A DNA stretch of 64,000 nucleotides from the NCBI GenBank assembly GCA_005799745.1, contig SYFY01000043.1, positions 1 to 64,000 on the forward strand. The letters run 5' to 3'. Positions 13,400 through 34,476 of this stretch are shown here, in pieces. The position numbers and the translations under genes were made by a program. The notes below the pieces were generated by a model. The model worked only from the letters and a program-made list of their open reading frames with translations. It was not told where the DNA came from and ran no database searches. The stretch's first letter is position 1. Each line of letters starts with the position of its first letter. Origin of the DNA: Gammaproteobacteria bacterium. Lineage in GTDB: Bacteria > Pseudomonadota > Gammaproteobacteria > Pseudomonadales > Azotimanducaceae.

Positions 13400-14539
13400 G
13401 TGGCTGCAGTCTCTACTGATGTTGATGTCCTGCCCGTCGAGGGAAACGAACGGCTGGATGATTTTCTGAACGTCCTCTGGACGGTTTATGCAGGGGACTC
13501 CGCATGGGTGCCACCGCTGTTGATTGAGCGCAAAGGATCTCTGTCGCCGAAGGAGCCGTTCTTTCGCCATGCCGAGTGGCAGGGTTGGGTGGCTTACCGC
13601 AGTGGCAAACCCGTTGGTCGTATCTCGGCGCAGATTGATCGGCTCTATCTCGAACGTTATCCCGATCGGACGGGTTATTTCGGGATGCTCGATGCCATTG
13701 ACGATGTTGCTGTGTTCGCAGCCTTGTTTGCAAAGGCGGAAGCTTGGCTGCGCGAGAAGGGCATGCAGCGGTTGGTAGGCCCTTTTAATCTCGGTATCAA
13801 CCAGGAAGTCGGCATGCTGGTCGAGGGTTACGACACGCCAGCGTATTTCCTGATGGGGCATGCACGGCCGTGGTTTCACGACCAGGTTAAGGCGCTTGGG
13901 TTTGCAGGTTGCCAGGACATGCTGGCCTATCTCCTGCCAACGCGTTACCAGGACAATCCTCGTATCGCTCGCTTGCGCCAACGTCTGGCTCGAAAGGTCT
14001 CGATTCGGCAACTGGATCGACGACGCAAGGATGAAGAGCTTGAGGTCCTTCGCAGTATCTTCAATGACGCCTGGTCGGAGAACTGGGGATTTGTTCCTTT
14101 CACCCAAGAAGAATTTGCGGCCATTGGCTCGATGTTGCTCATGCTGTTACCGAGAGATTTCGTATTGATTGCCGAAACCGAAGGGGAGCCTGTCGGCTTC
14201 ATCGTTCTGGTACCGAACCTCAACGAAGTGATTGGTGATCTCAACGGCCGATTGTTTCCCTTCGGCTGGATCAAGCTCTTGTGGCGACTCAAGGTGAAGT
14301 TCCCAACGACTGCGCGAGTGCCACTCATGGGCGTTCGTAAACGCTTGCACAACACACCTCTGGGTCCGGGGATCGCGACGATGTTGATCGAAGAGTTAGG
14401 TCAATCCGCGTCACGTGCGGGTGTCCACACCAACGAACTCTCCTGGATTCTCGATAGCAACGAAGGCATGCGCAGCATCATCGAGCGGATTGGCGGTGTG
14501 GTCTCCAAACGTTATCGGATGTACGAGAAACCGCTCTGA
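13400..14539 (+). CDS. GNAT-fold protein, candidate bacterial ceramide synthase
   Basis: A 379-residue protein with two GNAT-like halves: an N-terminal part with DSAWVPPLLIERKGSLSPKE and PVGRISAQIDRLYLERY, and a C-terminal part with PVGFIVLVPNLNEVI and TNELSWILDSNEGMRSIIER. This length and architecture match the GNAT-type acyltransferase shown in Caulobacter to acylate the sphingoid base (bCerS). First gene of the plus-strand cluster, its TGA overlaps the next ATG by one base. It would add the second acyl chain to 3-ketosphinganine made by the Spt-like enzyme at 27254. Family is firm, function is inference from locus. Confidence 0.7.
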   Translation: MAAVSTDVDVLPVEGNERLDDFLNVLWTVYAGDSAWVPPLLIERKGSLSPKEPFFRHAEWQGWVAYRSGKPVGRISAQIDRLYLERYPDRTGYFGMLDAIDDVAVFAALFAKAEAWLREKGMQRLVGPFNLGINQEVGMLVEGYDTPAYFLMGHARPWFHDQVKALGFAGCQDMLAYLLPTRYQDNPRIARLRQRLARKVSIRQLDRRRKDEELEVLRSIFNDAWSENWGFVPFTQEEFAAIGSMLLMLLPRDFVLIAETEGEPVGFIVLVPNLNEVIGDLNGRLFPFGWIKLLWRLKVKFPTTARVPLMGVRKRLHNTPLGPGIATMLIEELGQSASRAGVHTNELSWILDSNEGMRSIIERIGGVVSKRYRMYEKPL

Positions 14540-15327
14540 TGGAAGCAGTGCCAGCCATTGTTCTTGCCGGCGAGCGGCCGGGAGGGGGATTGCTCGCTCG
14601 CCACTTCGGCGTGGCAGCAAATGCGCTGGTTCCGGTTGCTGGAACAGCTTGTATCGTGCGGGTGATTGAAACGCTTAGACAATCGAAGTCGATCGAAGGT
14701 GGATTGATCAGCGGCCCCGTGCGTTCGGTGGTTGAAGACTCACCATTGTTTACAGCGCTGCTACGTCCTCAAGATTTTCGCTGGATCGAACCCGCTATGG
14801 GACCATCAGAAAGTGCGGCGGATGCACTGAAGTTCCTCAATCGCTGGCCGGTGTTGATAACCACAGCCGATCACGCGTTGCTCAGTCCTGACGCAGTTGA
14901 AAATTTCTGTACAAAAGCCAAGTCGCTACCTGTTGACGTCGTCGTCGGTCTCGCACCGATTGAAATCGTGCGCCATGCGTTTCCGGAGAGTCGCCGAACC
15001 GTCCTTCGTTTTGCGGATGGTGGGCGTTGTGGTACGAATCTGTTTTTTCTACGCAATGAGAGTGGCGTGCGCGTCGTCGAGTTTTGGAAGTCGTTGCAGG
15101 CAGATCGCAAGAAACCCTGGCGTATGGCGCGACGTATTGGTACAGGTGTGTTGTTGCGTTACTTCGCAGGCATGCTCACCGCTGACGATGCACTTCAGCG
15201 GATCGGGTTGTTAGCGGGTTGTACCATCGGATGGGTCAACCTGGTTGATCCTCGTGTGGCGGTGGATGTGGACTCGGTCGATGACCACGCGCTTGCCGAA
15301 AAGCTGCTCAGTGAACCGCGTGCATGA
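14539..15327 (+). CDS. MobA-like nucleotidyltransferase-fold protein
   Basis: A 262-residue protein with a nucleotidyltransferase (GT-A-like) fold: AIVLAGERPGGGLLARHFGV takes the place of the usual GxGxRxxP loop, and PVLITTADHALLSPDAVENF supplies the Asp region that binds metal. It lacks the perfect signature of MobA or IspD. Sitting between the GNAT and the lipid-kinase-like gene with overlaps at both ends (1 and 4 bp), it is probably part of sphingolipid head-group chemistry. The donor nucleotide is unknown. Confidence 0.7.
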   Translation: MEAVPAIVLAGERPGGGLLARHFGVAANALVPVAGTACIVRVIETLRQSKSIEGGLISGPVRSVVEDSPLFTALLRPQDFRWIEPAMGPSESAADALKFLNRWPVLITTADHALLSPDAVENFCTKAKSLPVDVVVGLAPIEIVRHAFPESRRTVLRFADGGRCGTNLFFLRNESGVRVVEFWKSLQADRKKPWRMARRIGTGVLLRYFAGMLTADDALQRIGLLAGCTIGWVNLVDPRVAVDVDSVDDHALAEKLLSEPRA

Positions 15328-16181
15328 ACAACGCCCTTCTGATCCGTAATCCAAGGGCAGCGCGAGTTCGAGGATCGACGCCGTTGGCCGTCGAAACGAT
15401 TGAACTCAACGAATCCTTCAGCGTTGACACCTGTGCAGGGCGAGATCTTGTGATCGTGGAAGGCGGCGACGGTACGTTGCAGCGAATTCTGACCACGTTG
15501 CTTGCGTTCGGGAGCAGTGATGCCTTGCCACCACTCGCCGTGTTACCGGCGGGTACAACCAACATGAACTGTGCCGAATTTAACCGGTCACGCGACTACG
15601 ACAACGCGGTGGCCAGTTTGCGGCAGATTTTGGCCGGTGGGGCGTTCGATATTCGGCACAAGTCGGTCGTGCGCGTTGATGAAGGAGCACGAACCCTGTT
15701 CGGCTTCTGTTTTTGTCTTGGCGCGGTGGTTGACGCGGTGCGGCAGTTTGCCTCGGCACGAACCCGACGCCCACTGTTCGACAGTCTCGCCATCGCCGGG
15801 GTTTTCGCAAAAGCGCTACTTCGGACACATACGGCACTGCGGATACACCTAGAAGCTGAAGCTATCGATACCTTCGCGATGGTCGCGACCACGTTGGATC
15901 GGCTGCTGTATGGCATGACACCGTTTCAGCCGGGTCGCCGCGCAACCGGATTACACACCACGTGGATCGAAGGAAATGCTCCCGGTCTTTGGCGCAAATT
16001 ACCTTCGTTCTTCCGCGGTGATCCCGCCTTGTTTGCGACGGACGGGTTTCGTAGTTTCGATGTGGAGCGCCTTCAACTCCGATTTGACGGTCCTTTTGTC
16101 ATCGACGGCGAAATGTTCGCGAACCCGGAAGGAGGCGTGTGTGTTTCCATGAGTCCCCCTGTTCGCTTCATCGTGATATAA
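15324..16181 (+). CDS. Diacylglycerol/ceramide-kinase-like protein
   Basis: A 285-residue protein of the DAGK catalytic family. The nucleotide-binding EGGDGTLQRIL is at about residues 49-59 and PLAVLPAGTTNMNCAEF at about 72-88, as in DgkB, YegS and sphingosine/ceramide kinases. The C-terminal beta domain ends with GPFVIDGEMF, the conserved lid strand. In this locus the natural substrate would be ceramide or a long-chain base, giving a phosphorylated, anionic sphingolipid; soluble or membrane-associated on the cytoplasmic face. Start ATG overlaps the previous gene by four bases. Confidence 0.82.
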   Translation: MNNALLIRNPRAARVRGSTPLAVETIELNESFSVDTCAGRDLVIVEGGDGTLQRILTTLLAFGSSDALPPLAVLPAGTTNMNCAEFNRSRDYDNAVASLRQILAGGAFDIRHKSVVRVDEGARTLFGFCFCLGAVVDAVRQFASARTRRPLFDSLAIAGVFAKALLRTHTALRIHLEAEAIDTFAMVATTLDRLLYGMTPFQPGRRATGLHTTWIEGNAPGLWRKLPSFFRGDPALFATDGFRSFDVERLQLRFDGPFVIDGEMFANPEGGVCVSMSPPVRFIVI

Positions 16182-16213
16182 AGCGCAGCTGATTTTGATG
16201 CCCGGTAACTCGT

Positions 16214-16987
16214 GTGATACCTGTCCCCGCAGTACTTCAGGACACAGCGGAACCCCCGCCGCCACCCCGCCTCGGTGTGAAACTCGGCAAGGTGGTCCTG
16301 CGCACAGTGGACCGGTTCTTCGCCCGGCATTCCAGGGTGCCGGTTACTCCATTTATCGATGCGAAGTACTTTCCGGAGCTTGCACCACTCAAAGCGGCCT
16401 GGCGCGATGTTGATGCAGAACTTACGCCGCTGCTTGAAGCCAGGGAGCGTATCCCCTCATTCCATCAACTCTCGAAAGATCAAGTGCGGATCTCTCGAGG
16501 TGACCATTGGAAGACCTTTGCTTTTTATGTGTTCGGTGATCGTGTTTCGGAAAACTGTGCACAGTGCCCACGCACAGCGGCTTTACTCGATGCCCTGCCG
16601 GGTATTCAGAATGCCTGGTTTTCGATTCTTGCACCGGGTTATCACATTCCACCGCACCGGGGTCCAAGCAGGGCGGTTGTGAGGTGTCACCTCGGACTGC
16701 ACATTCCGGAAGCGAAAGAGCGATGCTGGATTCGGGTCGACAACACACGCGCCCATTGGAGTGCGGGTGAATTCATGTGTTTTGACGACACCTACGAACA
16801 TGAAGTCCATAACGACACAGACGAAACGCGAGTCGTACTCTTTATCGATCTCGATCGGCCCCTCGACCGCATCGGCAGGAAGGGGTGTGAAGCGCTGCTT
16901 TGGTTGATGCGACGTTCAAAATACGTCAAGTCGTCGAAAGCCAACCTCGACGCGTGGAACCGGAGACTGGGCATCCGTGCAGATTGA
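16214..16987 (+). CDS. Aspartyl/asparaginyl beta-hydroxylase-like dioxygenase
   Basis: A 257-residue Fe(II)/2-oxoglutarate-type enzyme. WFSILAPGYHIPPHRGPSRA carries the first iron His and the VxHxG-like motif, RCHLGLHIP the 2OG-binding region, and FDDTYEHEVHNDTDETRVVL the distal His and Arg. The same fold is used by LpxO-type lipid hydroxylases, so a plausible role here is hydroxylation of the ceramide fatty acid. Starts at GTG; its end overlaps the next gene by 11 bp. Confidence 0.85.
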   Translation: MIPVPAVLQDTAEPPPPPRLGVKLGKVVLRTVDRFFARHSRVPVTPFIDAKYFPELAPLKAAWRDVDAELTPLLEARERIPSFHQLSKDQVRISRGDHWKTFAFYVFGDRVSENCAQCPRTAALLDALPGIQNAWFSILAPGYHIPPHRGPSRAVVRCHLGLHIPEAKERCWIRVDNTRAHWSAGEFMCFDDTYEHEVHNDTDETRVVLFIDLDRPLDRIGRKGCEALLWLMRRSKYVKSSKANLDAWNRRLGIRAD

Positions 16988-18608: not shown

Positions 18609-18716
18609 ACGGATGGCCTGTGGTAATTTGCGCGCCCTCATGTGCGGGCTTCAAAGAACCTCCGCTCGCTGAACCAAAAAAACCGGCGCCTTAACACCGC
18701 GGGGAACCGAGTACCG

Positions 18717-19487
18717 ATGAAAGTCATCATCCTGAGCGCCGGCCAGGGCCGCAGGCTCCTGCCTTATACCGAAAGCACGCCCAAGTGTGTTCTTGAGCTC
18801 GGCGATCGATCTGCCCTGGAGTGGCAGCTCAAAGCGCTCAAGGTGAGTGGTGCCAGTGAAGTGGTGGTGGTTTCTGGGTTCCAGGCGCCGAAAGTGAAAG
18901 CCGTCGTGGAGGGTTTTACCGATCTACCCGTGCGGGTTTCTCATAACCCGTTCTACGCGCATTCCGACAACCTCGGGACGTGTTGGATCGTGCGCCACGA
19001 GATGCATCAACCCTTTGTCATCATTAACGGTGACACGATGTTTGAGCCGGACATTTTTGCAAACTTGTTAGCCGCGCCAGCGCGTTATCCGATCACTCTG
19101 GTGACCAATCGCAAAGCCGCTTATGACGCTGACGACATGAAAGTGGTGCTCGATGGTGATCGGCTGCTCCGTGTCGACAAACGCCTCGACGTCAACGCGG
19201 TGAGTGGCGAATCCATCGGCATGATCCGCTTCACCGAACAAGGCGCGGCGTTGTTCCGTCGTCAGCTCGAACAGATGATGGAAAACGAATCCACACTCAA
19301 GCGCTGGTACCTCTCCGCCATCGATGGGCTCGCTGAGCTTGGGTATGTCGGTACGGTGAGCACGAATGGGCTTGCCTGGTGTGAAATCGATTCACCGGAC
19401 GATCTCGCCCATGCGCAGAAGACCGTGCCCGGTTGGTGGACGGAGGATGCGTTGCGGGCACGTGAACTTGAACGCTCTGACAGCTGA
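18717..19487 (+). CDS. Sugar-1-phosphate/polyol-phosphate nucleotidyltransferase
   Basis: A 256-residue enzyme with the canonical motif MKVIILSAGQGRRLLPYTES followed by TPKCVLELG at its N-terminus (GxGxRxxP...PK), and VIINGDTMFEPDIF for the metal-binding Asp. The C-terminus has GLAWCEIDSPDDL. It belongs with phosphocholine, inositol-phosphate and sugar nucleotidyltransferases, and would activate a head group as a CDP- or UDP-derivative. The start at 18717 is set by alignment; the ORF extends to 18642 without conserved residues. It could supply the CDP-alcohol used by the phosphatidyltransferase at 23985. Confidence 0.85.
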   Translation: MKVIILSAGQGRRLLPYTESTPKCVLELGDRSALEWQLKALKVSGASEVVVVSGFQAPKVKAVVEGFTDLPVRVSHNPFYAHSDNLGTCWIVRHEMHQPFVIINGDTMFEPDIFANLLAAPARYPITLVTNRKAAYDADDMKVVLDGDRLLRVDKRLDVNAVSGESIGMIRFTEQGAALFRRQLEQMMENESTLKRWYLSAIDGLAELGYVGTVSTNGLAWCEIDSPDDLAHAQKTVPGWWTEDALRARELERSDS

Positions 19488-19499
19488 TGGCTAACGTGT

Positions 19500-19931
19500 A
19501 TGCACGACACGGCGCGTAAGTTTGGTTGGCCCGCGACAGTCATCCACACCGGTGCTCACTGGACTGTTCTGCTGCGACCGCAGCAAGCCACACTAGGTTC
19601 AGTTGTGTTGTGCGCGAATGAGCCGGTGGCACGTTATTCCGATCTACCTGCGGCTGCGTTTGCGGAACAGGCAGAACTCGTGAAAGCCATCGAAACGCTG
19701 CTGAAAACGCTGGTGAGCTACGACCGCATCAACTGGCTGATGCTGATGATGGTGGATCCCCACGTGCACTTTCATGTGATTCCGCGTTATGAAACGCCAC
19801 GGGAGTTTGAAGGTGTGCCGTTTGCCGATGGTGGTTGGCCGGCACTCCCTCAGCTAGGTGGTGGTGTCGCGTTGGATGAATCACTGCGAGATCGATTGCT
19901 CGCACGCTTGAAGGCGATCTGGCAGGTTTGA
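19500..19931 (+). CDS. HIT family nucleotide-binding protein
   Basis: A 143-residue histidine-triad protein: HVHFHVIPRY with the triad histidines at about 88, 90 and 92, and TGAHWTVLLRPQQATLGSVV earlier. HIT proteins hydrolyse or transfer nucleotidyl groups such as AMP from adenylates; here it may recycle a nucleotide-linked head-group intermediate. It follows the nucleotidyltransferase by 12 bp and faces the LptA-like gene tail to tail. Confidence 0.85.
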   Translation: MHDTARKFGWPATVIHTGAHWTVLLRPQQATLGSVVLCANEPVARYSDLPAAAFAEQAELVKAIETLLKTLVSYDRINWLMLMMVDPHVHFHVIPRYETPREFEGVPFADGGWPALPQLGGGVALDESLRDRLLARLKAIWQV

Positions 19932-19969
19932 GCCGTTTGCGTCAGCTTCAGGCTCAGCCTCAGGGCTGA

Positions 19970-20581
19970 TCACTGCGCGGGTGGGCTGTCCTTCTGCAGC
20001 ACAAACTCCACACCCTGTTTGCCACCCGAGATGAGCTTCTTGTTGCCGACGTCGTAGATGATGGCGGCACTACGCACTGTGACCTTTTTCATTTCCATAC
20101 GTGCGTCGTCATGCAGCTCAAGCATTTTGGTCTGGTACATGTAGACGATGCGATTGCTGTAGCCGGTGCCCTGGCCTTCATTGTCACCTAGGGTGACACG
20201 AATACTGGCGGGTTTGCCGTAACCGATGATCTTGTCCGGGTCTTCCACCGGACCATGCACTTCAGCGCGCTCCGCACGCACTTCCCAGTCCTCAGTGCGC
20301 ATGTGGAATTCACCTTCGAGGTACAGCACATCCTCGTCTTCATCTTCCCAGGCTTTTTCAGCACGGATGAAGATCTGAGTATTGCCGCTGGTGACATCGA
20401 GTGCCTCGGCTTTGGCTTCTTCAGCAAGCGACATGGGCGGGAGAACGAAACTGAGCGTCAGAACCAGACACGTGGTGATACGAAGCCCGAATGTGTGGCT
20501 TAGACCTTGTCCCCCCGATGCGTGTCCCCTCGGTACGTGACCTAGCGCCAGATTGATACTGCTTTGTTCATGGCTGTTCAT
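19970..20581 (-). CDS. LptA/OstA-like periplasmic protein
   Basis: A 203-residue exported protein. A long N-terminal region with hydrophobic ITTCLVLTLSFVLPPMSLAE acts as the signal sequence. An OstA-like beta-jellyroll follows: NTQIFIRAEKAWEDEDEDVL, YLEGEFHMRTEDWEVRAERA, TGYSNRIVYMYQTKMLELHD. LptA bridges inner and outer membrane for LPS; this paralog lies divergent to LptF/LptG-like genes in a sphingolipid locus. The start is placed at ATG 20581; upstream codons to 20662 would overlap the lptF promoter region. Confidence 0.75.
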   Translation of the reverse strand: MNSHEQSSINLALGHVPRGHASGGQGLSHTFGLRITTCLVLTLSFVLPPMSLAEEAKAEALDVTSGNTQIFIRAEKAWEDEDEDVLYLEGEFHMRTEDWEVRAERAEVHGPVEDPDKIIGYGKPASIRVTLGDNEGQGTGYSNRIVYMYQTKMLELHDDARMEMKKVTVRSAAIIYDVGNKKLISGGKQGVEFVLQKDSPPAQ

Positions 20582-20678
20582 GTCGGCATGATAACACTGC
20601 ATCATTGCGCGTCCCCGCCAACTTCGACGCCGGCAGTCTGAGGTCAATATCCGCCCGACCATTCTTGATCGTTACATC

Positions 20679-21710
20679 GTGTCCGTGGTGCTTCGGCCGT
20701 TTCTCGCGGTTTCGGTACTGCTGGTGAGCGTCTTTGTCGCCTATAGCCTCGCGCGTTACTTATCCGAGGCGAACGAAGGCGTCTTGAACGCGGATTCAGT
20801 GTTTCGACTCACAGGTCTGAAATCACTCATCGCGCTGGAAGTACTGCTGCCTATCGCGCTCTATATCGGTTTCATCGTTGGCTTGGGTCGGCTCTATTCC
20901 GATTGGGAGGTGGTGGCATTTCGCGCCAGTGGCATCTCGGAGCTGCGGCTGATGTTGCCGGCGCTGTTCGTCGCGCTGCTGGTTGCCATTGCGACGGCCT
21001 TTCTCTCCCTTGAGCTCCGGCCGTGGGCTTACTCGCAGCTGTACGACACTGAAGCCCAGGCCGAAGCGGAAACGGATCTCACCAATCTCTCGACGGGGCA
21101 GTTTCATACCCTTTCGTCGGGAGGAAGGACGGTGTTTGTTGGCGACCGTGACGGCGATGACGCTGAAATGCAGCGTATCTTTCTTCGCCGCGGTGATGTG
21201 GATGATTTGGAAGTGGTTTCAGCGGAGCGTGGCGTATTGCATGAAGCGGCAACGGGTGATGCTCATACACTCGAACTTAAGGACGCAGTCATCTACAAAC
21301 GGGGGACCGAGGGTCGGGAGATGCTCGCCACGATTGGTGAGCTGACCGTCAAGGTTCCCGGTTTTGAACCTGATAAAGTGGGCTACAAAACTAAGGCAGC
21401 AGCCACGGCGGATTTGTTGGTATCGGAAGTACCGAAAGACCGGGCTGAGCTGCAGTGGCGTTTGTCCAATGCCATTTCTGCGCTGTTGCTTGCAGGCGTA
21501 GCACTGCCCCTTGGTCGCACCCGTCCTCGTTCCGGGCGCTACGCGCGCATCGTCATCGCAGCGGTGATCTACGCCGTGTACTACAACGTCCTGGGAGTTG
21601 TGCGCAGTGGTGTAGAACAGGGGACGCTCGACTATCTGTGGTGGGCACCCCTCGGTCTCGCAGTGCTTCTCGCTGCGGTGATTCTGTACCAGCGACGTAC
21701 TGGAATCTGA
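20679..21710 (+). CDS. lptF: LptF-like inner-membrane permease
   Basis: A 343-residue member of the YjgP/YjgQ (LptF/LptG) family. Helices come at the N-terminus (LRPFLAVSVLLVSVFVAYSL, then LEVLLPIALYIGFIVGLGRL and LMLPALFVALLVAIATAFL), followed by a periplasmic beta-jellyroll (about 125-245) and three C-terminal helices. The listed GTG start leaves out DRYI, which is conserved at LptF N-termini; an ATT at 20661 would restore ILDRYIVSV. No LptB or LptC is in the window. With the LptA-like gene next door, it likely serves a dedicated lipid export route. Confidence 0.88.
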   Translation: MSVVLRPFLAVSVLLVSVFVAYSLARYLSEANEGVLNADSVFRLTGLKSLIALEVLLPIALYIGFIVGLGRLYSDWEVVAFRASGISELRLMLPALFVALLVAIATAFLSLELRPWAYSQLYDTEAQAEAETDLTNLSTGQFHTLSSGGRTVFVGDRDGDDAEMQRIFLRRGDVDDLEVVSAERGVLHEAATGDAHTLELKDAVIYKRGTEGREMLATIGELTVKVPGFEPDKVGYKTKAAATADLLVSEVPKDRAELQWRLSNAISALLLAGVALPLGRTRPRSGRYARIVIAAVIYAVYYNVLGVVRSGVEQGTLDYLWWAPLGLAVLLAAVILYQRRTGI

Positions 21711-21713
21711 TCC

Positions 21714-22775
21714 GTGTTGCAGCTTGATCGATACGTTCTCATTGCCTTGTTACGTGGTGCCGCGCCGGTGGTGTTGCTCTTGCTTGGACTGTTCGGATTT
21801 CTGGAGCTCGCTGAACAGCTCGAAGACATCGGCAAGGGCAGCTACACGACCAACGATGCGTTGAGTGTTGCCGGATTGCATCTGCCACGGATCATGATCG
21901 ATCTCCTACCTGTGACGTGCCTGCTCGGCAGCATCATCGGCTACGGCGCGCTCGCTTCGGCTCAGGAGCTGACAGTACTGCGAACGAGCGGTTGGTCCGT
22001 GGTGCGTATCGCGGCACCGGTGATCGCGCTGTCGATGTTCATTGCCATCGGCGTGACCGTCGCCCAGCAGTGGATTATTCCCCGGCTTGAACAGGAAGCC
22101 TCCGCACTTCGTGTCAAGACCTTTTCAGCGTCGACACGTGAAGATGCGGCGTATTGGACTCGTCAGGACAACCGACTGCTACGCGTCGGTGGTGTTGAGA
22201 TGGGGATGGTGCCGGTGGATATCGAGATCTACGAACTCGACCCATCAGGCCTCGTGCGGACGTTGCAGCAGGCGAAGCGAGCGGATGTGTTGGGCGCCCG
22301 CAACTGGGTGCTACGTGATGTCACGACGATGGTATTCGAAGATGGCGGTGTACAGTCAAGCCACGTTGACGTGTTGCCTTTCGTGCCTAACTTCGATGCC
22401 GAGCAGATCTTCACACTGATCAATGCGGATCATGCGCTCGCGCCGCTGGATCTCATTCGTTATGTGGACCACTTGCAGTCTAATGGTCTGGAATCACACC
22501 GCTATGAAGTACTGCTTTGGCAACAGCTCAGCTTGCCGATTGGGCTCGTAGCGCTGTCATTGCTGGGGTTGCCAGTGGTATTGGGATCGATGCGCGCGAT
22601 GTCCCTCGGAGCACGGATTGCTATCGGTGCGGCTATTGGACTTGGTTTCTATTTGTTGGAACGACTCGCAATGCAGCTGGCGTTGCTTTATCACCTGCCG
22701 GCCCCGGCTACTGGCATGTTGCCGGACCTCGTGATGCTGGTGATCGCGTTGCTGCTGCTCAATCGGCGGCCCTGA
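21714..22775 (+). CDS. lptG: LptG-like inner-membrane permease
   Basis: A 353-residue LptF/LptG-family protein with MLQLDRYVLIALLRGAAPVV at its start, six predicted helices (among them VVLLLLGLFGFLELAEQL and LPIGLVALSLLGLPVVLGSM), and the central periplasmic jellyroll with NRLLRVGGVEMGMVPVDIEI and RNWVLRDVTTMVFEDG. It begins three bases after the lptF-like stop, so the two form a heterodimer operon. In canonical LPS export it would be the permease with LptF; the context favours a sphingolipid cargo. Confidence 0.9.
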   Translation: MLQLDRYVLIALLRGAAPVVLLLLGLFGFLELAEQLEDIGKGSYTTNDALSVAGLHLPRIMIDLLPVTCLLGSIIGYGALASAQELTVLRTSGWSVVRIAAPVIALSMFIAIGVTVAQQWIIPRLEQEASALRVKTFSASTREDAAYWTRQDNRLLRVGGVEMGMVPVDIEIYELDPSGLVRTLQQAKRADVLGARNWVLRDVTTMVFEDGGVQSSHVDVLPFVPNFDAEQIFTLINADHALAPLDLIRYVDHLQSNGLESHRYEVLLWQQLSLPIGLVALSLLGLPVVLGSMRAMSLGARIAIGAAIGLGFYLLERLAMQLALLYHLPAPATGMLPDLVMLVIALLLLNRRP

Positions 22776-22778
22776 CTG

Positions 22779-23696
22779 TCAGCGTTCGAGCAGCCAACTC
22801 TCCTGCCCCTCTGTCGAGATGGTCCCGGAGCGAAGCCGGTAGAGTGAGGTAGAGATTCCCCAAACACCCAGCGGCGATCGATTCAGATCGAAGATACGAA
22901 AACTTGCGTCGGCTGCAGAAGCAGACGCGGTCGAGAAAACACGTGCACGACCATAATGCCGTTGATCATTGTGATGTGTGTGGCCGTGCAGGATCACATC
23001 CACTTGGCGGAGTGTGTTGGCTGCTTTGTCCGCATCGCGAAGCGCTTTGCGTTTCCGGACTCCGGCTTCCTGGGCGATCTCTGGCGGGTGGTGTAGCAGC
23101 AGCACGTTGGGCGCCATGTTCGAACCGGTCAGTAAGAGATCAGCAAGTTCGGTTCGCTGTCTCGCCCCAAGTTCACCTTCTGCGCTGTACCAGGGCATTG
23201 GCAAGGCGGTGTTGGCGAGGGTGATCTTCACTCCTTCCATCTCAAAGCGAATGGGATAAAGATCGTGTGGATGCGTGGGCACTTGATCGAGACGTAACCA
23301 GTCTCGCCAGCGTGACGCCACTTCAGGCCAAGCGCGCGCCGTGTAAATGTCGTGATTGCCTGGCACCACCACCACACGCTCCGGACCGCCGAGCGTTTGC
23401 AGCCAGTCCATCGCTTCAGCGTGTTCATCGGCCAAGCCGATGTGAACGAGATCTCCGGTGATGCAGATGAGATCCGGTTCATGGGACAACATCGCCGCCG
23501 AGATCTGATCGAGTCGCTCTCGCAGATGCAGCCGACGTCGCCGTTTCGCCCAGGATTGGTAGCCGAGCCATTCTTTGCGACGCAGATCGCGTAGGCGAAC
23601 ATGATGCAGCGATGTGAGGTGTGGATCGGTGAGATGGGCAAGACGCAACACGAGGCACCGGTCTGGATTGTGGAGGAGTTTAACAGCACGCTTCAT
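22779..23696 (-). CDS. Calcineurin-like metallophosphoesterase
   Basis: A 305-residue phosphoesterase with the full metal signature: LAHLTDPHLTS (DxH), DLICITGDLVHIG (GDxx), VVVPGNHDIYT (GNHD), LLLHHPPE (H), and HGHTHHND (GHxH). It is probably cytosolic, as no signal peptide is visible. It opposes the LptG-like gene tail to tail. In inositol-lipid and ceramide pathways a phosphatase often removes a phosphate after CDP-alcohol transfer; that role is possible here but not shown. Confidence 0.88.
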   Translation of the reverse strand: MKRAVKLLHNPDRCLVLRLAHLTDPHLTSLHHVRLRDLRRKEWLGYQSWAKRRRRLHLRERLDQISAAMLSHEPDLICITGDLVHIGLADEHAEAMDWLQTLGGPERVVVVPGNHDIYTARAWPEVASRWRDWLRLDQVPTHPHDLYPIRFEMEGVKITLANTALPMPWYSAEGELGARQRTELADLLLTGSNMAPNVLLLHHPPEIAQEAGVRKRKALRDADKAANTLRQVDVILHGHTHHNDQRHYGRARVFSTASASAADASFRIFDLNRSPLGVWGISTSLYRLRSGTISTEGQESWLLER

Positions 23697-23984: not shown

Positions 23985-25154
23985 ATGATCAAAGCCTGTG
24001 TGATCGGCAAAGGCGCCATCCGTTTGTGGGGACTGGATGGCCGAACCCGGATCGGTCGGCAGTTGAGTGCCATCGGTGGGATAGAAGTGGTGGATAGCGT
24101 CGACAACGTTGGTGCGAACGACAAGGTGCTGCTCATCCGTGCAGACCACGTGTTCGAGCTACGTGGATTGTCGAGCCTCGTTGGGCTCGAAGGTGTATTG
24201 GTCGCGGATGGCAAGGCTGCGGCAGCTATTGTCGCCGGGAATCAAGTCCCAGCAGCGGTTGCTGCGTTACATGGCGAGCAGACCTCCCTACCAAAACTAT
24301 CGCTCAATGACCTCGCGGCCTACGCGGTAGAACTGCGCAAAACCGAACCACCCCTTGTCGCTGAAGTTACATCCGCCAGCCAGGCGGGATTGGAGAGCCG
24401 CCTCTATGGTGGCTCCTACAAAGGCGTGACCGACTTTGTCACCAAGTGGTGGTGGCCAAAACCGGCGCGACGTGGAGTTGAATTTGCCGCGAAGCTCGGT
24501 CTCACACCTAACATGGTGACGGGGACCGGTGTGCTGCTCATGCTGATTGCCTTGTGGGCATTTGCTGAAGGTCAATATGTCGCGGGATTGATCTGCGGCT
24601 GGATCATGACCTGGCTCGACACGGTTGATGGCAAGCTCGCGCGCGTGACGGTGCAATCGAGTCGAATCGGCCACATCCTCGATCACGGGATGGACATCGT
24701 GCATCCACCGTTCTGGTACTGGGCTTGGGGTGCCTCGCTTGGGGCTGCCTATGTCGGTCCGTTTGATCTCACGCTGAACCAACTCGTTATTCTGGTCTTT
24801 GTCGGATACATCGGCGGACGCTTAATGGAAGCCGCCTTCCATTTGCTTGGTCCCATCGGGCTTTTTGCATGGCGGCCGTTTGATGCGTATTTCCGGCTCT
24901 ACACCGCGCGGCGTAACCCGTGCCTCGTGTTGATGACCGCCGCATTGCCCATAGGTGGTGCGGAGCTGTCTTTTCTCCTCGTGGTCGGCTGGCATCTCCT
25001 GTCGACGTTGATTCTGATGTTGCGTTTGCTCTACGCGATTGGCGTCCGTCTGCGTGGAGGGCCGCTCACGTCCTGGCTCGCTGATCCTGAGTCACGCAAC
25101 CGTTACCCGCGTGCCCATGCGACGTTTTCTGCGACCCGTGCTGCCTACGAGTGA
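23985..25154 (+). CDS. CDP-alcohol phosphatidyltransferase with N-terminal Rossmann-like domain
   Basis: A 389-residue integral membrane enzyme. The C-terminal half (about 170-389) has the diagnostic motif DTVDGKLARVTVQSS then GHILDHGMD (D..DG..AR...G...D...D), plus helices such as TGTGVLLMLIALWAFAEGQY. The first ~130 residues (CVIGKGAIRLWGLDGRTRIG, VLLIRADHVFELRG) look like a degenerate nucleotidyltransferase or Rossmann domain. That arrangement recalls bifunctional IPCT/DIPP synthases, with the active cytidylyltransferase here perhaps provided by the gene at 18717. It would transfer a phospho-alcohol to an acceptor lipid. The next gene overlaps by four bases. Confidence 0.85.
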   Translation: MIKACVIGKGAIRLWGLDGRTRIGRQLSAIGGIEVVDSVDNVGANDKVLLIRADHVFELRGLSSLVGLEGVLVADGKAAAAIVAGNQVPAAVAALHGEQTSLPKLSLNDLAAYAVELRKTEPPLVAEVTSASQAGLESRLYGGSYKGVTDFVTKWWWPKPARRGVEFAAKLGLTPNMVTGTGVLLMLIALWAFAEGQYVAGLICGWIMTWLDTVDGKLARVTVQSSRIGHILDHGMDIVHPPFWYWAWGASLGAAYVGPFDLTLNQLVILVFVGYIGGRLMEAAFHLLGPIGLFAWRPFDAYFRLYTARRNPCLVLMTAALPIGGAELSFLLVVGWHLLSTLILMLRLLYAIGVRLRGGPLTSWLADPESRNRYPRAHATFSATRAAYE

Positions 25155-25999
25155 ATCCGGGAAGCACCCCTTCCGGCGTCATGTCAGTTTCATCTGACGA
25201 TCCACTTCTGCCTCTCCTGGATTCAGTCCATCGCCGTTTTGGCGCCGTTGTGGATGCTGTCTTCCTCTATGGTTCATGGCGGCGCGGGCGGCGCGACACC
25301 ATGCCGGACTTTTATGTGTTGCTCCGCGAATACCCTTCTGGAATCAAGTATTTTCCGGGGCGCCTGCTGCCACCCACGGTACTTGTTCTGCAAGGTGGCG
25401 AGCTGCGTGCCAAGGTCACAGTGCTGCTGACTTCAGAGCTTGCCCGCGCGGTCGCCAGCGATTTCCATCCGTACTTTTGGGCACGATTTGCTCAACCCGC
25501 ACCGCTGCTCTATGTGCGTGAGCCGACTGTCGGGAAACAGTGCGAAGCGATTCGTGATGCGGCGGCGGTTCGGCTCACCCGTATTGTCGCAACGTGGTGG
25601 CAGGGTCATGCGGTTCCACCCGCAGCAGAGTTTTGGCAACAAGGGTTCACACTCACCTATGGTGCCGAGCTTCGCTCCGAACCCCCGGAACGAATCGCTG
25701 CATTGTATGCAGCAGATTGTGCGCATTACGACACGTTGTACTCACGATGGGCGCAACCCCAGGGAGGCGCGCTCAGCCGCTTGTCCTGGCGCCTTAGACA
25801 AACTGTTGGAAAAATGCTCTCAGGTATTCGAATCGTCAAGGCAGCATTGACCTTCGAAGATCCTCTCGACTACCTCGCCTGGAAAGTGGGCCGCCAATCC
25901 GGTGTGCAGCTCGAACCGGGAACACTCGCACGGCGTTGGCCGTTGCTCTTCGGTTGGTCCTACGTCTTTCGGCTCTGGCGTGCAGGGGGCTTCCGATGA
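25151..25999 (+). CDS. Unknown protein with nucleotidyltransferase-like N-terminus
   Basis: A 282-residue protein not assigned to a named family. The N-terminal VDAVFLYGSWRRGRRDTMPD followed by FYVLLREY resembles the GS-x-x-xG...D-x-[DE] strand-loop of pol-beta-type nucleotidyltransferases, though the second Asp is replaced by Tyr. The C-terminal half is rich in Trp and Arg (LSWRLRQTVGKMLSGIRIVK, RRWPLLFGWSYVFRLWR) and may bind membrane. It is overlapped by four bases at each end by the CDP-alcohol transferase and the flippase genes, so the three are surely co-translated. Confidence 0.7.
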   Translation: MNPGSTPSGVMSVSSDDPLLPLLDSVHRRFGAVVDAVFLYGSWRRGRRDTMPDFYVLLREYPSGIKYFPGRLLPPTVLVLQGGELRAKVTVLLTSELARAVASDFHPYFWARFAQPAPLLYVREPTVGKQCEAIRDAAAVRLTRIVATWWQGHAVPPAAEFWQQGFTLTYGAELRSEPPERIAALYAADCAHYDTLYSRWAQPQGGALSRLSWRLRQTVGKMLSGIRIVKAALTFEDPLDYLAWKVGRQSGVQLEPGTLARRWPLLFGWSYVFRLWRAGGFR

Positions 26000-27294
26000 G
26001 TCGCTGGCAACACCTGGCGATCAACTTTGGTTGGCTCTTAGGCGGGCAGAGCGCGGCGACGGTACTTGGACTGCTCTCCACAGCAATTTGCGCCAGAACA
26101 CTCGGAGCGGATGAGTTCGGCGTCGTCGTGATGCTGCAGGCTGGCGCACTCTTGATTCGCCAGTTCTGCAACTTCAAAACCGCCGATGCCACGGTGCGTT
26201 TCGGTGTTGCCGAACACGCTTCCGGCGATCGGGATCGCTGGTTGTCGCTCTTGCGTGGGCTGTTTCGACTCGACCTCATTGGTATGGCGGCAGCGGTGGT
26301 GGTCATCACCTGCACTCTGCTGATCGGCGAGATGGTGCGTCCGGAACTTTTCCCGGACGCGAGCTGGATCTATGTGTTGGCCGCGACAGGCTTTATCGAG
26401 GGCACATCAAAAGGTGCACTACGTGTGCTTGATCGTTATCAGGTGTTGGGTGCGCTGGAGGCTATGGGTTCGCTGGTCCGTTTGCTCGGTGCTGCGACGG
26501 CAGCGTGGCTCGATGCGCCGGTGGATGCCTTTATCGTCGTCTATGGCGTGGCGTTGTGGCTCGATCACGGACTCACCTTGCTGCCTGCATGGCTCTCACT
26601 CCGCAACACGATCAGAGAAAAACCTTTGCAGAAACGCATTCCGCTCAGCGAGTTTTCAGGTGTCAGAGCTTTCCTTGGTTCCGTGTATTGGCAATCCAAC
26701 ATCGACTCGTTGATGCGACAGGGACCGACACTACTGGTCGGCTCGATGTTGTCGTCAGGCGACGCGGGTATTTATCGTCTCGCACGGGATATCGCCGATG
26801 CTGTGCGCAAGCCCGTCATGCTGATTCGTCAGGCGATCTTTCCGGACCTTGCACGCACCTGGCTCAACGAGCCTTCACAGTTCCTGCGCTTCACCTTGCA
26901 AGTGACTTCGGTGTTGGCAGGTGTTGGTGTGCTTTTCATGGTGGTGATCTGGTTCCTTGGGGACGACCTGCTGAACCTCTTGGGTGGTCCTGAATTTGTT
27001 CCCGGTACCATGCTCGTGATTCTGTTGATGGGCGCAGCCGTGTTGGAACTCCCAAGCGCGAGTCTTCGCCCGGCGGTCTATACGCTGAGTGGAGAACGGA
27101 TGGTGCTAGGGCTCTCACTCGCGATTGCGGTGACTTATGCACTTGGATTCTTGTGGCTTGACTCAGGCGTGGGTCTCTACGCCGCAGGATGGTCGAGTCT
27201 CATGGCCTACGGCATGGCGTTTGTGGGGTATCTCGTTTTGCTGAGCATTCTGCTTAAGCGTTTAAGTCGGCGAGCACCGCCCCCAGTTTCGTAA
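25996..27294 (+). CDS. MOP-superfamily lipid/polysaccharide flippase
   Basis: A 432-residue membrane protein with about 12 hydrophobic segments, beginning MSRWQHLAINFGWLLGGQSA, an N-terminus typical of Wzx/PST-type transporters. Later segments include VTSVLAGVGVLFMVVIWFLG and MLVILLMGAAVLELP. It should flip a lipid-linked product across the inner membrane. The start ATG overlaps the previous stop (ATGA). Its 3' end overlaps the Spt-like gene on the other strand by 41 bp. Confidence 0.85.
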   Translation: MSRWQHLAINFGWLLGGQSAATVLGLLSTAICARTLGADEFGVVVMLQAGALLIRQFCNFKTADATVRFGVAEHASGDRDRWLSLLRGLFRLDLIGMAAAVVVITCTLLIGEMVRPELFPDASWIYVLAATGFIEGTSKGALRVLDRYQVLGALEAMGSLVRLLGAATAAWLDAPVDAFIVVYGVALWLDHGLTLLPAWLSLRNTIREKPLQKRIPLSEFSGVRAFLGSVYWQSNIDSLMRQGPTLLVGSMLSSGDAGIYRLARDIADAVRKPVMLIRQAIFPDLARTWLNEPSQFLRFTLQVTSVLAGVGVLFMVVIWFLGDDLLNLLGGPEFVPGTMLVILLMGAAVLELPSASLRPAVYTLSGERMVLGLSLAIAVTYALGFLWLDSGVGLYAAGWSSLMAYGMAFVGYLVLLSILLKRLSRRAPPPVS

Positions 27295-28435: not shown

Positions 28436-28439
28436 AGGC

Positions 28440-28676
28440 CTAACCCCCTCGAATTTTCTCGATAACTGAGGCGAGCTGCGCAAGCGTGCGCACGTCAGCC
28501 AACCGATCCTGGGCGATAGCAATGTCAAAGTGATCCTCGGCTTCCATGACGAATTCCATGACCTGCACGGATTCAAGGGCGAGGTCTTCGATCAAATCGG
28601 AGTCCGGGCCGAACGCCGCAGGCAGCTCCGTGATGTGTCCGAGCAGCGTGGACAACTGTTGCTCAATATCGGTCAC
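28440..28676 (-). CDS. Acyl carrier protein
   Basis: A 78-residue four-helix ACP. The phosphopantetheine Ser is about residue 36 in DLALESVQVMEF (a DSL variant reading ESV). Flanking helices are IEQQLSTLLGHITELP and LAQLASVIEKIRG. The GTG start at 28676 is chosen because the upstream extension overlaps the neighbouring epimerase gene and is not ACP-like. It probably carries the acyl chain loaded by the FAAL at 29698 and hands it to the Spt-like enzyme that follows four bases downstream. Confidence 0.85.
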   Translation of the reverse strand: MTDIEQQLSTLLGHITELPAAFGPDSDLIEDLALESVQVMEFVMEAEDHFDIAIAQDRLADVRTLAQLASVIEKIRGG

Positions 28677-28726
28677 GACTGAAAAGACTCCGGAAACACT
28701 GATGTTGGGGTATGTCGGTAACGGAC

Positions 28727-29701
28727 TTACCGCGTTTGCATCGTTTGTTGCACACCGGCCTTGAGCGTCCATTGCGGCCGCCAGCCGGTTAATGCGGTGA
28801 ATGCATTATTACCTTCTGTCTCGCCGCTGCCCACCCAATGTGGATTCAACAGTTCGTTCACCTTGCCAGGGGACAACATTGGCGCGGTGCCGGTAAGGCT
28901 CGCCCACGACGCATTCAATCGCCCGAGCAGCCGCAGAAACGCCGGTGGCAACACGAGACGGAGACGTCGTCGGTCACAAACCGCCTTTTCGATATCGGCC
29001 CAGTCATATCCACCTGTTGTGCCATCGTCGAGTGTGAAAATGCGGCGTTGCAGCAGCTGCGCGTGATTAAGCCATGCAAGGCAAGCTGCGGTCAGGTCCG
29101 CGACGTGAATGAACGAAATCCGATTGGCGAGGCTGCCGGGCACGATGATCACGCCGCGGACTAACCAAGTGAGCAATGGGCGAAGTTCTTTTTCACCAGG
29201 CCCGTACACCGCCGGCGGACGCAAGGCACACCACCGCAGCGCACTTTGCGTAATGATCGCTTCACCAGAGCGTTTGCTGGCGGCGTAGTCCGAAAGTTCA
29301 GGCTGACTTGCGGCGAGTGAAGACATGAGCAATAGGGGCGTGTCGACCGCGTTGGTTTCCATCACGCGCCGAAGCACTGAGATCGAATCCGTATTGACGG
29401 AAGCGAACTGTTCTCCGCTACTTCCGCGAACAGCGCCGGCGAGGGCGATCATTGCGGTTGCGTTTTGAACGGCGGACCGAAGAGCTTCACCATCGAAGAG
29501 ACTGGCACGAAGAATGTGACAGCGTGGATCGAGGGGAACTTCTGCGCGCTCGGGTCGAATGACCGCAGTGACGTAGTGACCCGCGTCGAGTAATGCACGA
29601 TGAACATGCTGACCGATGAAGCCTGTGGCGCCGGTCAACAGGATACGATGCGTGCGCGGTAAGTCAGGCGCAGCAGGTGAACCGTGGGAAGGCGTGGTCA
29701 G
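28727..29701 (-). CDS. NAD-dependent epimerase/dehydratase, candidate ceramide reductase
   Basis: A protein of about 325 residues with an N-terminal Rossmann motif RILLTGATGFIGQHVHRALL, then MIALAGAVRGSSGEQF, LLLMSSLAASQPELSDYAAS with the Ser and YxxxK catalytic residues (YAASK), and ALRPPAVYGPGE. It is an extended SDR. In the Caulobacter pathway the reductase CerR, from this family, reduces the 3-keto group after acylation. The start is unclear: a CTG at 29701 overlaps the FAAL stop by four bases and gives the right N-terminus; no ATG is close by. Confidence 0.8.
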   Translation of the reverse strand: MTTPSHGSPAAPDLPRTHRILLTGATGFIGQHVHRALLDAGHYVTAVIRPERAEVPLDPRCHILRASLFDGEALRSAVQNATAMIALAGAVRGSSGEQFASVNTDSISVLRRVMETNAVDTPLLLMSSLAASQPELSDYAASKRSGEAIITQSALRWCALRPPAVYGPGEKELRPLLTWLVRGVIIVPGSLANRISFIHVADLTAACLAWLNHAQLLQRRIFTLDDGTTGGYDWADIEKAVCDRRRLRLVLPPAFLRLLGRLNASWASLTGTAPMLSPGKVNELLNPHWVGSGETEGNNAFTALTGWRPQWTLKAGVQQTMQTR

Positions 29702-31476
29702 CCGTAACCTTCTAGCGCTGACGTGGCGATCGGATTGCCGTGTTCGTCCCAACCCACACGTTCGAGGAAGCCCAATCGCGCGGTAGCACGGGAGAGTTTG
29801 CCGGAGGAAGTCTTCGGCAACGTCTTGGGCGGAACAAGCTCGACATGGCAAGTCACACCAAAACTGCTGGAAACACGCGCAGCGATGAGCTTGCGCAGCT
29901 CCGGGTCCGGTCGTTTCGTTTCAACCACGACAACCACCATTGGATCGTTGTCGGGACGAGCCACTTCAAACGCGGTGGAATCTCCCAGACGGACACCGGG
30001 ACAGGATTCAGCGAGTTGTTCGAGATCCTGCGGCCAGATGTTGCGGCCGTGGATGATGATCACGTCTTTGCTGCGTGCGGTGACATAGAGGTGGTGATTA
30101 AGGCTGTAGCCGATATCTCCCGTGTCCAGCCAACCGTCTGCGCTCAGTACCCGTGCGGTTGCTTCTGGATCATTGAAGTAACCCCGCATGACACTCGGGC
30201 CCCGTACCTGGATGTGGCCACACTGCCGGTCTGGCAAGGTGCGGCCGCCACCGTCGGTGATACGCAGTTCGTAGCTCGGCAACATGCGCCCGCAGTCGAC
30301 GAGTTCGAGCACCTCGGCGTCACCTTCCACCGGCACGGCTTTGCCCGTGCGGGTAATCAGGTCCTTGTCGACATTGTCTACTGTGACGCCTTCTCGCAGT
30401 GGCGCAAAGCTGACGGCGAGTCCACATTCGGCCATGCCATAACAGGCGACAAAGGCTTTGGGATCGAAACCCATATCCTTCATGGCGTTGGCGAAACCGA
30501 CGAGTTGCCGAGGATTGATTCGTTCCGCGCCAACACTTGCGACCCGCCAGCTCGACAGGTCGTATTTTTGTTGGTCGGTCGTCAGACGAAGCCGAGTCGC
30601 ACACAGGCCATATCCTGACGGTGGGCTGGATGAGATCGTGCCGCGGTTGTCACTGATGAGTTTCAGCCAGAGGCGTGGACGCATCGCGAAGGTGCGCGGG
30701 CTCAGGTAGTCGACAGACAGTTGACGGCACAGCGGTACGAGTACAAAGCCAACGAGTCCCATGTCGTGATAGAACGGCAACCACGATACCAGCCGATCTT
30801 CGGCGGTCATGTTGACGCCTTTGTCGACGATTTCATTGAGGTTGCAGATAACCGCGCGTTCGGTCATCTCGACACCGCGTGGGAACTGCGTGCTTCCAGA
30901 GGTGTATTGCAGGTACGCCGGGTCGTCACGATCCAGTGGTAGAAGCTCGCGATCTTCGGCCGGCAGTACGGTTAAGGCGTCGGCACCGCCGTGCCACGTG
31001 AGGTCACAACCTTCGACGGCACGACTCAACAGATCTTCATATCCTGGTGGTGCAATGGCGACCGATGCGGTGCAGCTCTGCAACATCCGGCGAATCTGAT
31101 TTACGTAACTCTCGGCACCGCCCATGAACAGGGCCGCGGGCATCGGCACCGGGATGAAGCCTGCATATTGGCAGGCAAAGAAAACCTTGTGAAAGAGTGG
31201 CGTAGTGTCCGCAATGATGGCGACACGTGCGAGTCTCGGCAGATTCAATGTCGCGAGTTGCTTGGCGAGGTGTAATGCCTCCACACGCAAATCGCGATAG
31301 GTCAGGACATCGGTCAGTTGGCCGCTGCCATTATAGAAGTTGAAACCGGTGACACCCGTCGCTGCAAAATCGAGCATTTCCGCCAGGTTGGCCAAAGGTT
31401 TGGCAGGCGGTTTCAGGCCCGAAAAAGTTGGGATGGCGACGAGGCTTTGCCTTTCTTGCTGTGCTTCGATGTGCAT
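29698..31476 (-). CDS. Fatty acyl-AMP ligase/acyl-ACP synthetase
   Basis: A 592-residue adenylate-forming enzyme. The core motif LQYTSGSTQFPRGVEMTERA is at about 190-209, followed by WLPFYHDMGLVGFVLVPLCR, ACYGMAECGLAVSF and GWLDTGDIGY. The C-terminal domain ends with PKTLPKTSSGKLSRATARLG, carrying the catalytic Lys. HDMGLVG and the overall layout are typical of FAALs, which activate a fatty acid as acyl-AMP and load it on an ACP, and not of CoA ligases. First gene of the minus-strand operon leading to reductase, ACP and Spt. Confidence 0.92.
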   Translation of the reverse strand: MHIEAQQERQSLVAIPTFSGLKPPAKPLANLAEMLDFAATGVTGFNFYNGSGQLTDVLTYRDLRVEALHLAKQLATLNLPRLARVAIIADTTPLFHKVFFACQYAGFIPVPMPAALFMGGAESYVNQIRRMLQSCTASVAIAPPGYEDLLSRAVEGCDLTWHGGADALTVLPAEDRELLPLDRDDPAYLQYTSGSTQFPRGVEMTERAVICNLNEIVDKGVNMTAEDRLVSWLPFYHDMGLVGFVLVPLCRQLSVDYLSPRTFAMRPRLWLKLISDNRGTISSSPPSGYGLCATRLRLTTDQQKYDLSSWRVASVGAERINPRQLVGFANAMKDMGFDPKAFVACYGMAECGLAVSFAPLREGVTVDNVDKDLITRTGKAVPVEGDAEVLELVDCGRMLPSYELRITDGGGRTLPDRQCGHIQVRGPSVMRGYFNDPEATARVLSADGWLDTGDIGYSLNHHLYVTARSKDVIIIHGRNIWPQDLEQLAESCPGVRLGDSTAFEVARPDNDPMVVVVVETKRPDPELRKLIAARVSSSFGVTCHVELVPPKTLPKTSSGKLSRATARLGFLERVGWDEHGNPIATSALEGYG

Positions 31477-34439: not shown

Positions 34440-34476
34440 ACCCGTAGTCCGCCGCTCGACTGAGGAGGGAAGAAGC

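Follow-up and report, generated by a model that had tools for sequence, protein, structure and literature searches.

Which lipid would be built and exported by the 18-kb locus at positions 13400-31476 of the DNA examined here? The window (the whole stretch of 64,000 nt) corresponds to contig C9 in the 3.87-Mb metagenome-assembled genome (MAG) of an uncultured gammaproteobacterium, which consists of 218 contigs and has a reported contamination of 4.93%. We interpret the locus as a complete sphingolipid system of the ceramide phosphoglycerate (CPG) or ceramide diphosphoglycerate (CPG2) type, a reading to which we assign a probability of approximately 0.82. Sequence homology and the order of the genes are the evidence, together with catalytic and substrate residues that are kept and with predicted folds; from these we infer production of the lipid by the host, a CDP-ceramide step, two further modifications, and transport. 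Published articles are cited by their PMC numbers.

The locus contained 18 tightly spaced genes, with a largest gap of 288 bases. Percentages in the following list are identities to the Caulobacter protein.

13400-14539, plus strand: GNAT N-acyltransferase, orthologue of bacterial ceramide synthase (bCerS/CC_1154/YghO); PF00583, 29.5 bits
14539-15327, plus strand: MobA-like NTP transferase, counterpart of CC_1153; PF12804, 36.8 bits
15324-16181, plus strand: DAGK-type lipid kinase, orthologue of ceramide kinase CpgB (CC_1160); PF00781, 41.4 bits
16214-16987, plus strand: PF05118 (OlsC/LpxO-type) hydroxylase; 169.9 bits
16977-18608, plus strand: GMC-family FAD oxidoreductase, adjoining cpgD; PF05199, 80.2 bits
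18642-19487, plus strand: CTP:phosphoglycerate cytidylyltransferase, orthologue of CpgD (CC_1152); 47%
19500-19931, plus strand: HIT-family protein, counterpart of CC_1157 (number assigned by gene order); PF01230; 51%
19970-20662, minus strand: LptA-like periplasmic protein (LptA2); PF03968 (LptD_N), 37.4 bits, above its cut-off
20679-21710, plus strand: second-copy LptF (LptF2); TIGR04407, 279 bits (cut-off 230), and tree
21714-22775, plus strand: second-copy LptG (LptG2); TIGR04408, 276 bits (cut-off 240), and tree
22779-23696, minus strand: calcineurin-like phosphoesterase, counterpart of CC_1158; PF00149, 59.4 bits; 33%
23985-25154, plus strand: CDP-alcohol phosphotransferase with a cytidylyltransferase-like N-domain, orthologue of CpgA (CC_1159); PF01066, 41 bits
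25151-25999, plus strand: Tam41-like CTP:phospholipid cytidylyltransferase (282 aa), orthologue of CpgC (CC_1161); 32%, and predicted fold
25936-27294, plus strand: MOP-family flippase, counterpart of CC_1166; PF01943, 43 bits
27254-28435, minus strand (frame open to 28576): serine palmitoyltransferase (Spt); NF047599, 531.8 bits (cut-off 500)
28440-28772, minus strand: dedicated acyl carrier protein (AcpR); PF00550, 38.1 bits
28727-29851, minus strand: NAD-dependent epimerase/dehydratase family protein, orthologue of CerR; PF01370, 72.4 bits
29698-31476, minus strand: fatty acyl-AMP ligase (FAAL), acyl-AcpR synthetase (AasR); NF006624, 689.7 bits (cut-off 600)

All genes named in the first-pass annotation were recovered as open frames at these coordinates and with the domains assigned to them (ORF check and domain profiles). 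Three genes were additional to it, namely the GMC oxidoreductase, the HIT protein, and the metallophosphoesterase. The gene-by-gene comparison supported the overall function proposed there, which was synthesis, head-group attachment, and export of a sphingolipid.

The Caulobacter crescentus CPG2 locus (CC_1152-CC_1168, ccna_01210-01226) was the main reference. A Caulobacter locus (L223) was found by means of the published cpgD primer among 390 genomes of one family (18 matches with at most one mismatch, four exact); five of the eight published primers matched it exactly, and CpgD residues R16, K26, and D112 were at their published positions. Thirteen of the 18 window genes clearly matched this locus: the ceramide genes (AasR, CerR, AcpR, Spt, and CerS), CpgA to CpgD, CC_1153, the HIT protein, the phosphoesterase, and the flippase. 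In Caulobacter, CPG2 formation involves eleven of these genes, and CC_1158 is not essential for it (PMC11324152); all eleven had counterparts in the window. A second LptF/LptG pair is also common to both (PMC11324152), with weak matches to those of the window. The gene order was rearranged relative to Caulobacter, the window LptF2 and LptG2 were on another branch, and the PF05118 hydroxylase, the GMC oxidoreductase, and LptA2 were extra. The locus is thus a well-supported CPG2-type locus: the system belongs to a familiar class and is supplemented with extra enzymes. We also considered the CDP-alcohol transferase, HIT, and cpgD-like genes as an extra submodule, which was rejected because all of them belong to the known Caulobacter set.

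The core enzymes of the Caulobacter ceramide route, whose presence had been proposed from the sequence, were confirmed. The GNAT protein was 49% identical to YghO of E. coli BL21 (371 bits) and 44% identical to the Caulobacter protein, and Spt was 50% identical to Caulobacter Spt. Spt exceeded the cut-off of just one of the 25 models listed, that for beta-type SPT (NF047599); the alpha-type SPT model scored 416.2 (cut-off 670), and the bioF, Kbl, ALAS, and autoinducer-synthase models were all below their cut-offs. The best PDB match was SPT 2x8u (374.7 bits), and AONS 1bs0 scored 195 bits. In a tree of 26 rows, Spt clustered with its Caulobacter and E. coli BL21 counterparts (support 100/100), with BioF and Kbl outside this branch, on long branches that raised a tool warning. 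The truncated Spt of L156, seven own-genome paralogues, and L043 were left out of this tree; blast at E 1e-10 did not connect the paralogues or L043 with the window Spt, either through divergence or because a wrong frame was extracted. A blastn search of spt against E. coli genomes gave no match. Model scores, PDB matches, and tree all placed the enzyme with SPTs and spoke against an identity as AONS/KBL or as a pigment synthase, the outcome that would, according to the first-pass annotation, have overturned its interpretation.

The remaining ceramide genes were consistent with this assignment. The acyl carrier protein (ACP) was 46% identical over 61 residues to the BL21 ACP and 40% identical to that of Caulobacter. 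An ACP match adjoined Spt in all 20 relatives fetched, as it does in the window; a specialised ACP gene is described as adjoining spt, and the BL21 Spt has been tested together with its acyl carrier protein (PMC9386255). The CerR orthologue was 36% identical to the BL21 and 32% identical to the Caulobacter protein, and the YAASK motif was present in the window and in Caulobacter; its start codon is uncertain because approximately 66 residues precede the domain in frame. FAAL/AasR was 45% and 43% identical to the BL21 and Caulobacter proteins, respectively.

The head group was considered next to CpgD. The window orthologue kept nine of nine published residues (R16, K26, N90, N110, D112, M147, K161, S170, and W201). 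R16, K26, and D112 are published active-site residues (PMC12275187). In CpgD structures, Asn90 and Asn110 contact the glycerate, Ser170 does so via water, Met147 and Lys161 determine the enantiomer, and Arg16 and Trp201 surround CTP (PMC13228409). Among 45 rows of the CpgD family, two of them truncated and some from a genome fetched twice (e.g., L047 and L087), R16, K26, N90, N110, D112, and W201 were kept in 43, M147 in 44, K161 in 43, and S170 in 42. The kept residues are the best evidence for a phosphoglycerate head group, and with all nine in place the predicted product is ceramide (di)phosphoglycerate. The kinase activity of CpgB has been shown (PMC10331486), and the window orthologue had a GGDG motif at residue 47. 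The CC_1153 counterpart was 38% identical to the Caulobacter protein and lacked the G-x-G-x-R loop in alignments. The HIT protein had an H-x-H-x-H pattern at residue 88. CC_1157 is regarded as probably unrelated to the Caulobacter pathway in the passage that treats it (PMC11324152); the HIT protein may nevertheless belong to the pathway, because its sequence is conserved at 51% identity. HIT matches were found in just 20 of 80 named loci, which were chosen by their counterpart of CpgA, the CDP-alcohol transferase, and are the best 80 of at least 525 loci.

The fold of the CpgC counterpart bears on how the ceramide is activated. A model built from 53 sequences (pLDDT 91.8) matched Tam41 structure 7ecd with a Z-score of 17.6 over 211 residues (rmsd 3.0 Å, 12% identity). 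The next matches were Tam41 6ig4 (Z 12.4) and 6ig2 (Z 11.9), followed by aminoglycoside nucleotidyltransferases (7.7). Foldseek gave E 2.3e-5 and TM-scores of 0.54/0.56 to Tam41, and the CpgC family profile matched 6ig2 (E 5.3e-6). At E ≤ 1, 33 of the 53 sequences matched the Tam41 family PF09139, the best of them with 2.5e-7; three other members scored 12.3, 19.2, and 18.0 bits, below the cut-off of 24. A search for the D-x-D pattern after YGS found it in none of the 53 sequences, which fits the single-acid pattern of Tam41, an enzyme that keeps only one of the three usual acids (PMC11646218). An inactive nucleotidyltransferase with a broken D-x-D was therefore dropped as an explanation of the 282-aa protein. 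In addition to fold, YGS, and single acid, the CpgC counterpart shared with Tam41 (7ecd, 6ig4) the invariant Lys and R-F-x-Q-P, whereas it was below PF09139 and its expected lipid substrate is ceramide-1-phosphate. These data support a Tam41-like mode of action for a protein not assigned to PF09139, and the modelled fold adds support to a CDP-ceramide step. The step is not in itself a new idea, because an NDP-activated ceramide made by CC_1161 has already been proposed from an InterPro domain (PMC11324152); only added support is claimed here. None of the literal terms CDP-ceramide, CDP-dihydroceramide, or cytidine diphosphate ceramide occurred in a collection of open-licence PubMed Central papers. 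Deletion of cpgD abolishes CPG2 and not CPG (PMC12275187), and the first glycerate is therefore independent of CpgD-made CDP-glycerate; Caulobacter genetics thus fits an activation on the lipid side. Elsewhere in the phylum, three loci belonging to other classes (L200, L201, and L204) had CpgB and CpgC genes, and CpgA, CpgD, or CC_1153 profiles had no matches in the 20 kb fetched. An E. coli BL21 gene annotated as hypothetical (ECD_RS14865) was rejected on comparison as a CpgC counterpart.

The CpgA orthologue was 39% identical to that of Caulobacter, and its motif D-x2-DG-x2-AR-x8-G-x3-D-x3-D was intact. Its model (pLDDT 94.1) matched AF2299 (Z 23.2) and the fused IPCT-DIPPS 4mnd (Z 22.3) across residues 1 to approximately 355 of 389. 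In three Nitrospirales MAGs (L119, L127, and L148), the kinase and the Tam41-like gene lay between two CpgA-like genes, each of which perhaps serves one of the two glycerates.

Together, these genes suggest the following pathway, in which the reactions of CpgB and CpgD, the use of AasR and AcpR by Spt, and mutant lipid phenotypes are taken from Caulobacter papers. AasR would charge AcpR with a fatty acid, and Spt would condense serine with the acyl-AcpR. CerS would attach the amide acyl chain, CerR would reduce the ketone, and CpgB would phosphorylate the ceramide. The Tam41-like CpgC would then form CDP-ceramide from ceramide-1-phosphate and CTP, to which a further transferase would join glycerate or phosphoglycerate, giving CPG. 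CpgD would supply CDP-glycerate, from which CpgA would add the second phosphoglycerate, with the CC_1153-like, phosphoesterase, and HIT proteins as putative helpers. The hydroxylase would add a hydroxyl group, likeliest on the acyl chain, and the GMC enzyme would oxidise an alcohol, likeliest of the head group. The MOP flippase and LptF2, LptG2, and LptA2 would finally move the lipid to the outer membrane.

The two putative modifying enzymes distinguish the window from Caulobacter, because neither the hydroxylase nor the GMC oxidoreductase had a match in L223. The hydroxylase was below the equivalog cut-offs for OlsC (189; cut-off 450) and LpxO (138.2; cut-off 500). It was also found in loci of Azomonas (L138), Pseudomonas sp. 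Root562 (L160), and Stutzerimonas (L162), where GMC was not found; the locus of Azomonas macrocytogenes (L138) had two OlsC-type matches. Acyl hydroxylation in Caulobacter is attributed to an unlinked DesA-type enzyme, CC_0202 (PMC11324152). Because Caulobacter CPG is hydroxylated, the window enzyme would, by analogy, most likely act on the amide acyl chain of ceramide. GMC adjoined cpgD in all 11 named loci that had it (same direction, four; divergent, seven), and this position suggests that it would most likely oxidise an alcohol in the head group. The 11 aligned GMC sequences kept a G-x-G-x-x-G loop, which we take to be the FAD loop, together with HH[ML]GTTRM and GWANPTLT, which we presume to be active-site-like. 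If both enzymes act as suggested, then the product could be an undescribed phosphosphingolipid, with a hydroxylated ceramide activated through CDP-ceramide by CpgC, a GMC-oxidised phosphoglycerate head (for example, the free CH2OH of a 2-linked glycerate converted to an aldehyde or a second carboxylate), its own flippase, and dedicated export by LptF2, LptG2, and LptA2. We put this forward tentatively, as a rather unlikely outcome.

The same GMC enzyme raises the question of whether the head group is phosphoglycerate at all. Together with altered partners, it could yield another acid or a sugar-derived group on a ceramide phospholipid, and its constant position next to cpgD in two orientations, its best PDB matches (glucose and fructose dehydrogenases, over short stretches), and the lack of a GMC match in the Caulobacter locus are in favor of this. 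The complete set of CpgD catalytic and substrate-binding residues and the presence of CpgA, CpgB, CpgC, and CC_1153 counterparts argue the other way, and a further-oxidised phosphoglycerate would still be a CPG2-type lipid. We therefore consider a different head group quite improbable. A more radical alternative is that the oxoamine synthase makes a biotin precursor, an aminoketone, a pigment precursor, or a sulfonolipid, so that the cluster would not serve sphingolipids. The fold is shared by all of these enzymes, and the BioF (331.6 bits) and Kbl (276 bits) models also match. The single exceeded cut-off and the tree, the difference between cysteate acyltransferase 28eh (147.5 bits) and SPT 2x8u, and the ceramide partner genes in the same locus all contradict this alternative, which is almost certainly wrong.

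For the export genes, we weighed an ordinary lipopolysaccharide (LPS) exporter lying beside the cluster by chance, given that LptF and LptG both exceeded LPS-export equivalog cut-offs. Elsewhere in the genome, C59 carried another LptF/LptG pair, and LptA/D-type genes were also present on C43, C69, and C177. The genome also had two LpxC genes (G000 C81:12639-13454 and C41:9886-10701), either a paralogue or contamination. On these genes, the host most likely makes LPS as well. In the LptF tree, LptF2 grouped with the spt-linked LptF of BL21 and a copy in another genome, G194 (97/97), apart from the C59 type (100/100); in the LptG tree, the BL21 and G194 copies were not firmly joined to LptG2. 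The trees had 13 and 14 rows and used 23 of 26 extracted rows; L240, L245, and L250 (no hit, presumably because of wrong frames) and the fragments L253 and L255 were left out. Among the 44 named loci that were 18 kb or longer, 40 matched the LptF profile and 40 the LptG profile. A chance neighbor is thus very unlikely. LptF2 and LptG2 were approximately 22% identical to the Caulobacter copies (38-42 bits, weak matches), and the latter (L232, L244) grouped with other Caulobacter copies rather than with gammaproteobacterial ones. The transport genes of alpha- and gammaproteobacterial loci, to judge from these trees, may have been recruited or replaced separately. The flippase was 25% and 24% identical to the Caulobacter and BL21 proteins, respectively.

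Several observations weigh against the CPG/CPG2 interpretation. The host genome is a MAG with a completeness of 85.9%, distributed over its 218 contigs. CpgB, the weakest of the eleven counterparts, was only 29% identical to Caulobacter CpgB. Named loci of 18 kb or more that had a Tam41-like gene numbered 41, and a profile search found no CpgB-type kinase nearby in 21 of them; in ten kinase-less loci inspected by eye (unassigned ORFs, without domain search), no replacement kinase was evident. The window CpgC counterpart itself had no Pfam match (PF09139 included), Caulobacter CpgC had none at E ≤ 1, and the Foldseek TM-scores to Tam41 were moderate (0.44-0.56). CpgA is dispensable for the first glycerate in Caulobacter genetics (PMC11324152), which leaves the scheme without a transferase for that step. 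The H-x-H-x-H pattern was not found in the Caulobacter HIT counterpart (L223:6364-6798). LptA2 scored 59.8 bits with TIGR03002, below the equivalog cut-off of 71.7, and LptF2 and LptG2 did not group with those of Caulobacter.

The gene arrangement itself was preserved among relatives. The closest relative found (G001) had 17 of the 18 genes in identical order, its contig stopping inside the epimerase and before FAAL, which indicates that the arrangement is not due to chance. Within the family, the hydroxylase match was absent in G016 and G023, and the kinase and GMC matches were absent in G015. G019 had no LptA2 or flippase match, and its LptF/LptG matches were weak and outside the block.

The suggestion in the first-pass annotation that such a combination is unusual in a gammaproteobacterium was not supported. 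E. coli BL21(DE3) carries synthesis, flippase, and LptFG genes side by side in one block (yghO-FAAL-epimerase-ACP-spt-lptG-lptF-YtfJ-hypothetical-MOP). This block shares CerS, FAAL, CerR, AcpR, Spt, LptF, LptG, and MOP with the window; it differs in that CpgA to CpgD, hydroxylase, and GMC profiles matched nothing across the 49 kb examined. Contiguous clusters of ceramide, CPG2, and transport genes are reported from Azotobacter vinelandii and Pseudomonas luteola (PMC11324152). The passage describing these clusters reports them without CC_1158, CC_1166 (the flippase), CC_1167, and CC_1168, whereas the window has the phosphoesterase and the flippase. Of 398 genomes taken from the phylum, 43, including that of the window, had a ceramide-synthase match (E ≤ 1e-20).

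Many of the 80 named loci had comparable gene sets. They came from uncultured Gammaproteobacteria, Pseudomonadales, Lysobacterales, Nitrosomonas, Azomonas, Pseudomonas, Stutzerimonas, Nitrospirales, Desulfobulbaceae, and others. The Tam41-like gene was the most frequent (70), followed by LptG (63), LptF (60), GNAT (46), phosphoesterase (43), CpgD and CpgB (39 each), Spt (29), flippase (26), hydroxylase (16), and GMC (11). All six of GNAT, Spt, LptF2, LptG2, the CDP-alcohol transferase, and the Tam41-like gene occurred together in 20 of the 80 fetched stretches. The absence of a gene is weak evidence here, because many of the fetched stretches were short.

Around the locus, an amidohydrolase gene (11968-13185, minus strand; Xaa-Pro dipeptidase-like, below cut-off) adjoined the cluster, as it did in G001 (83% identity). 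Approximately 2.6 kb upstream of the cluster was an ORF for an IS91/ISCR-related transposase (9656-10804, minus strand; ISCR clade Ia, 231 bits, below the cut-off of 925). This ORF overlapped one arm of an inverted repeat of 136 nt (9882-10017 and 10947-11082; 76% complementary). On the other side, genes for an enoyl-CoA hydratase, a CoA-transferase III, a luciferase-like monooxygenase, and a class III aminotransferase lay on one strand (33600-38661, plus strand) and are perhaps a catabolic cluster. An Rfam scan of 9000-36000 and a tRNA scan of the whole window were both empty.

The anionic sphingolipid CPG2 helps Caulobacter to survive without lipopolysaccharide (PMC12275187). Proof is still awaited in Caulobacter for its export route and for the enzymes of its first glycerate; the locus described here is a compact alternative set from another class. 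The confident Tam41-like model of the CpgC counterpart makes the idea of CDP-ceramide directly testable, and the GMC and hydroxylase genes point to modifications of the head group and of the acyl chain.

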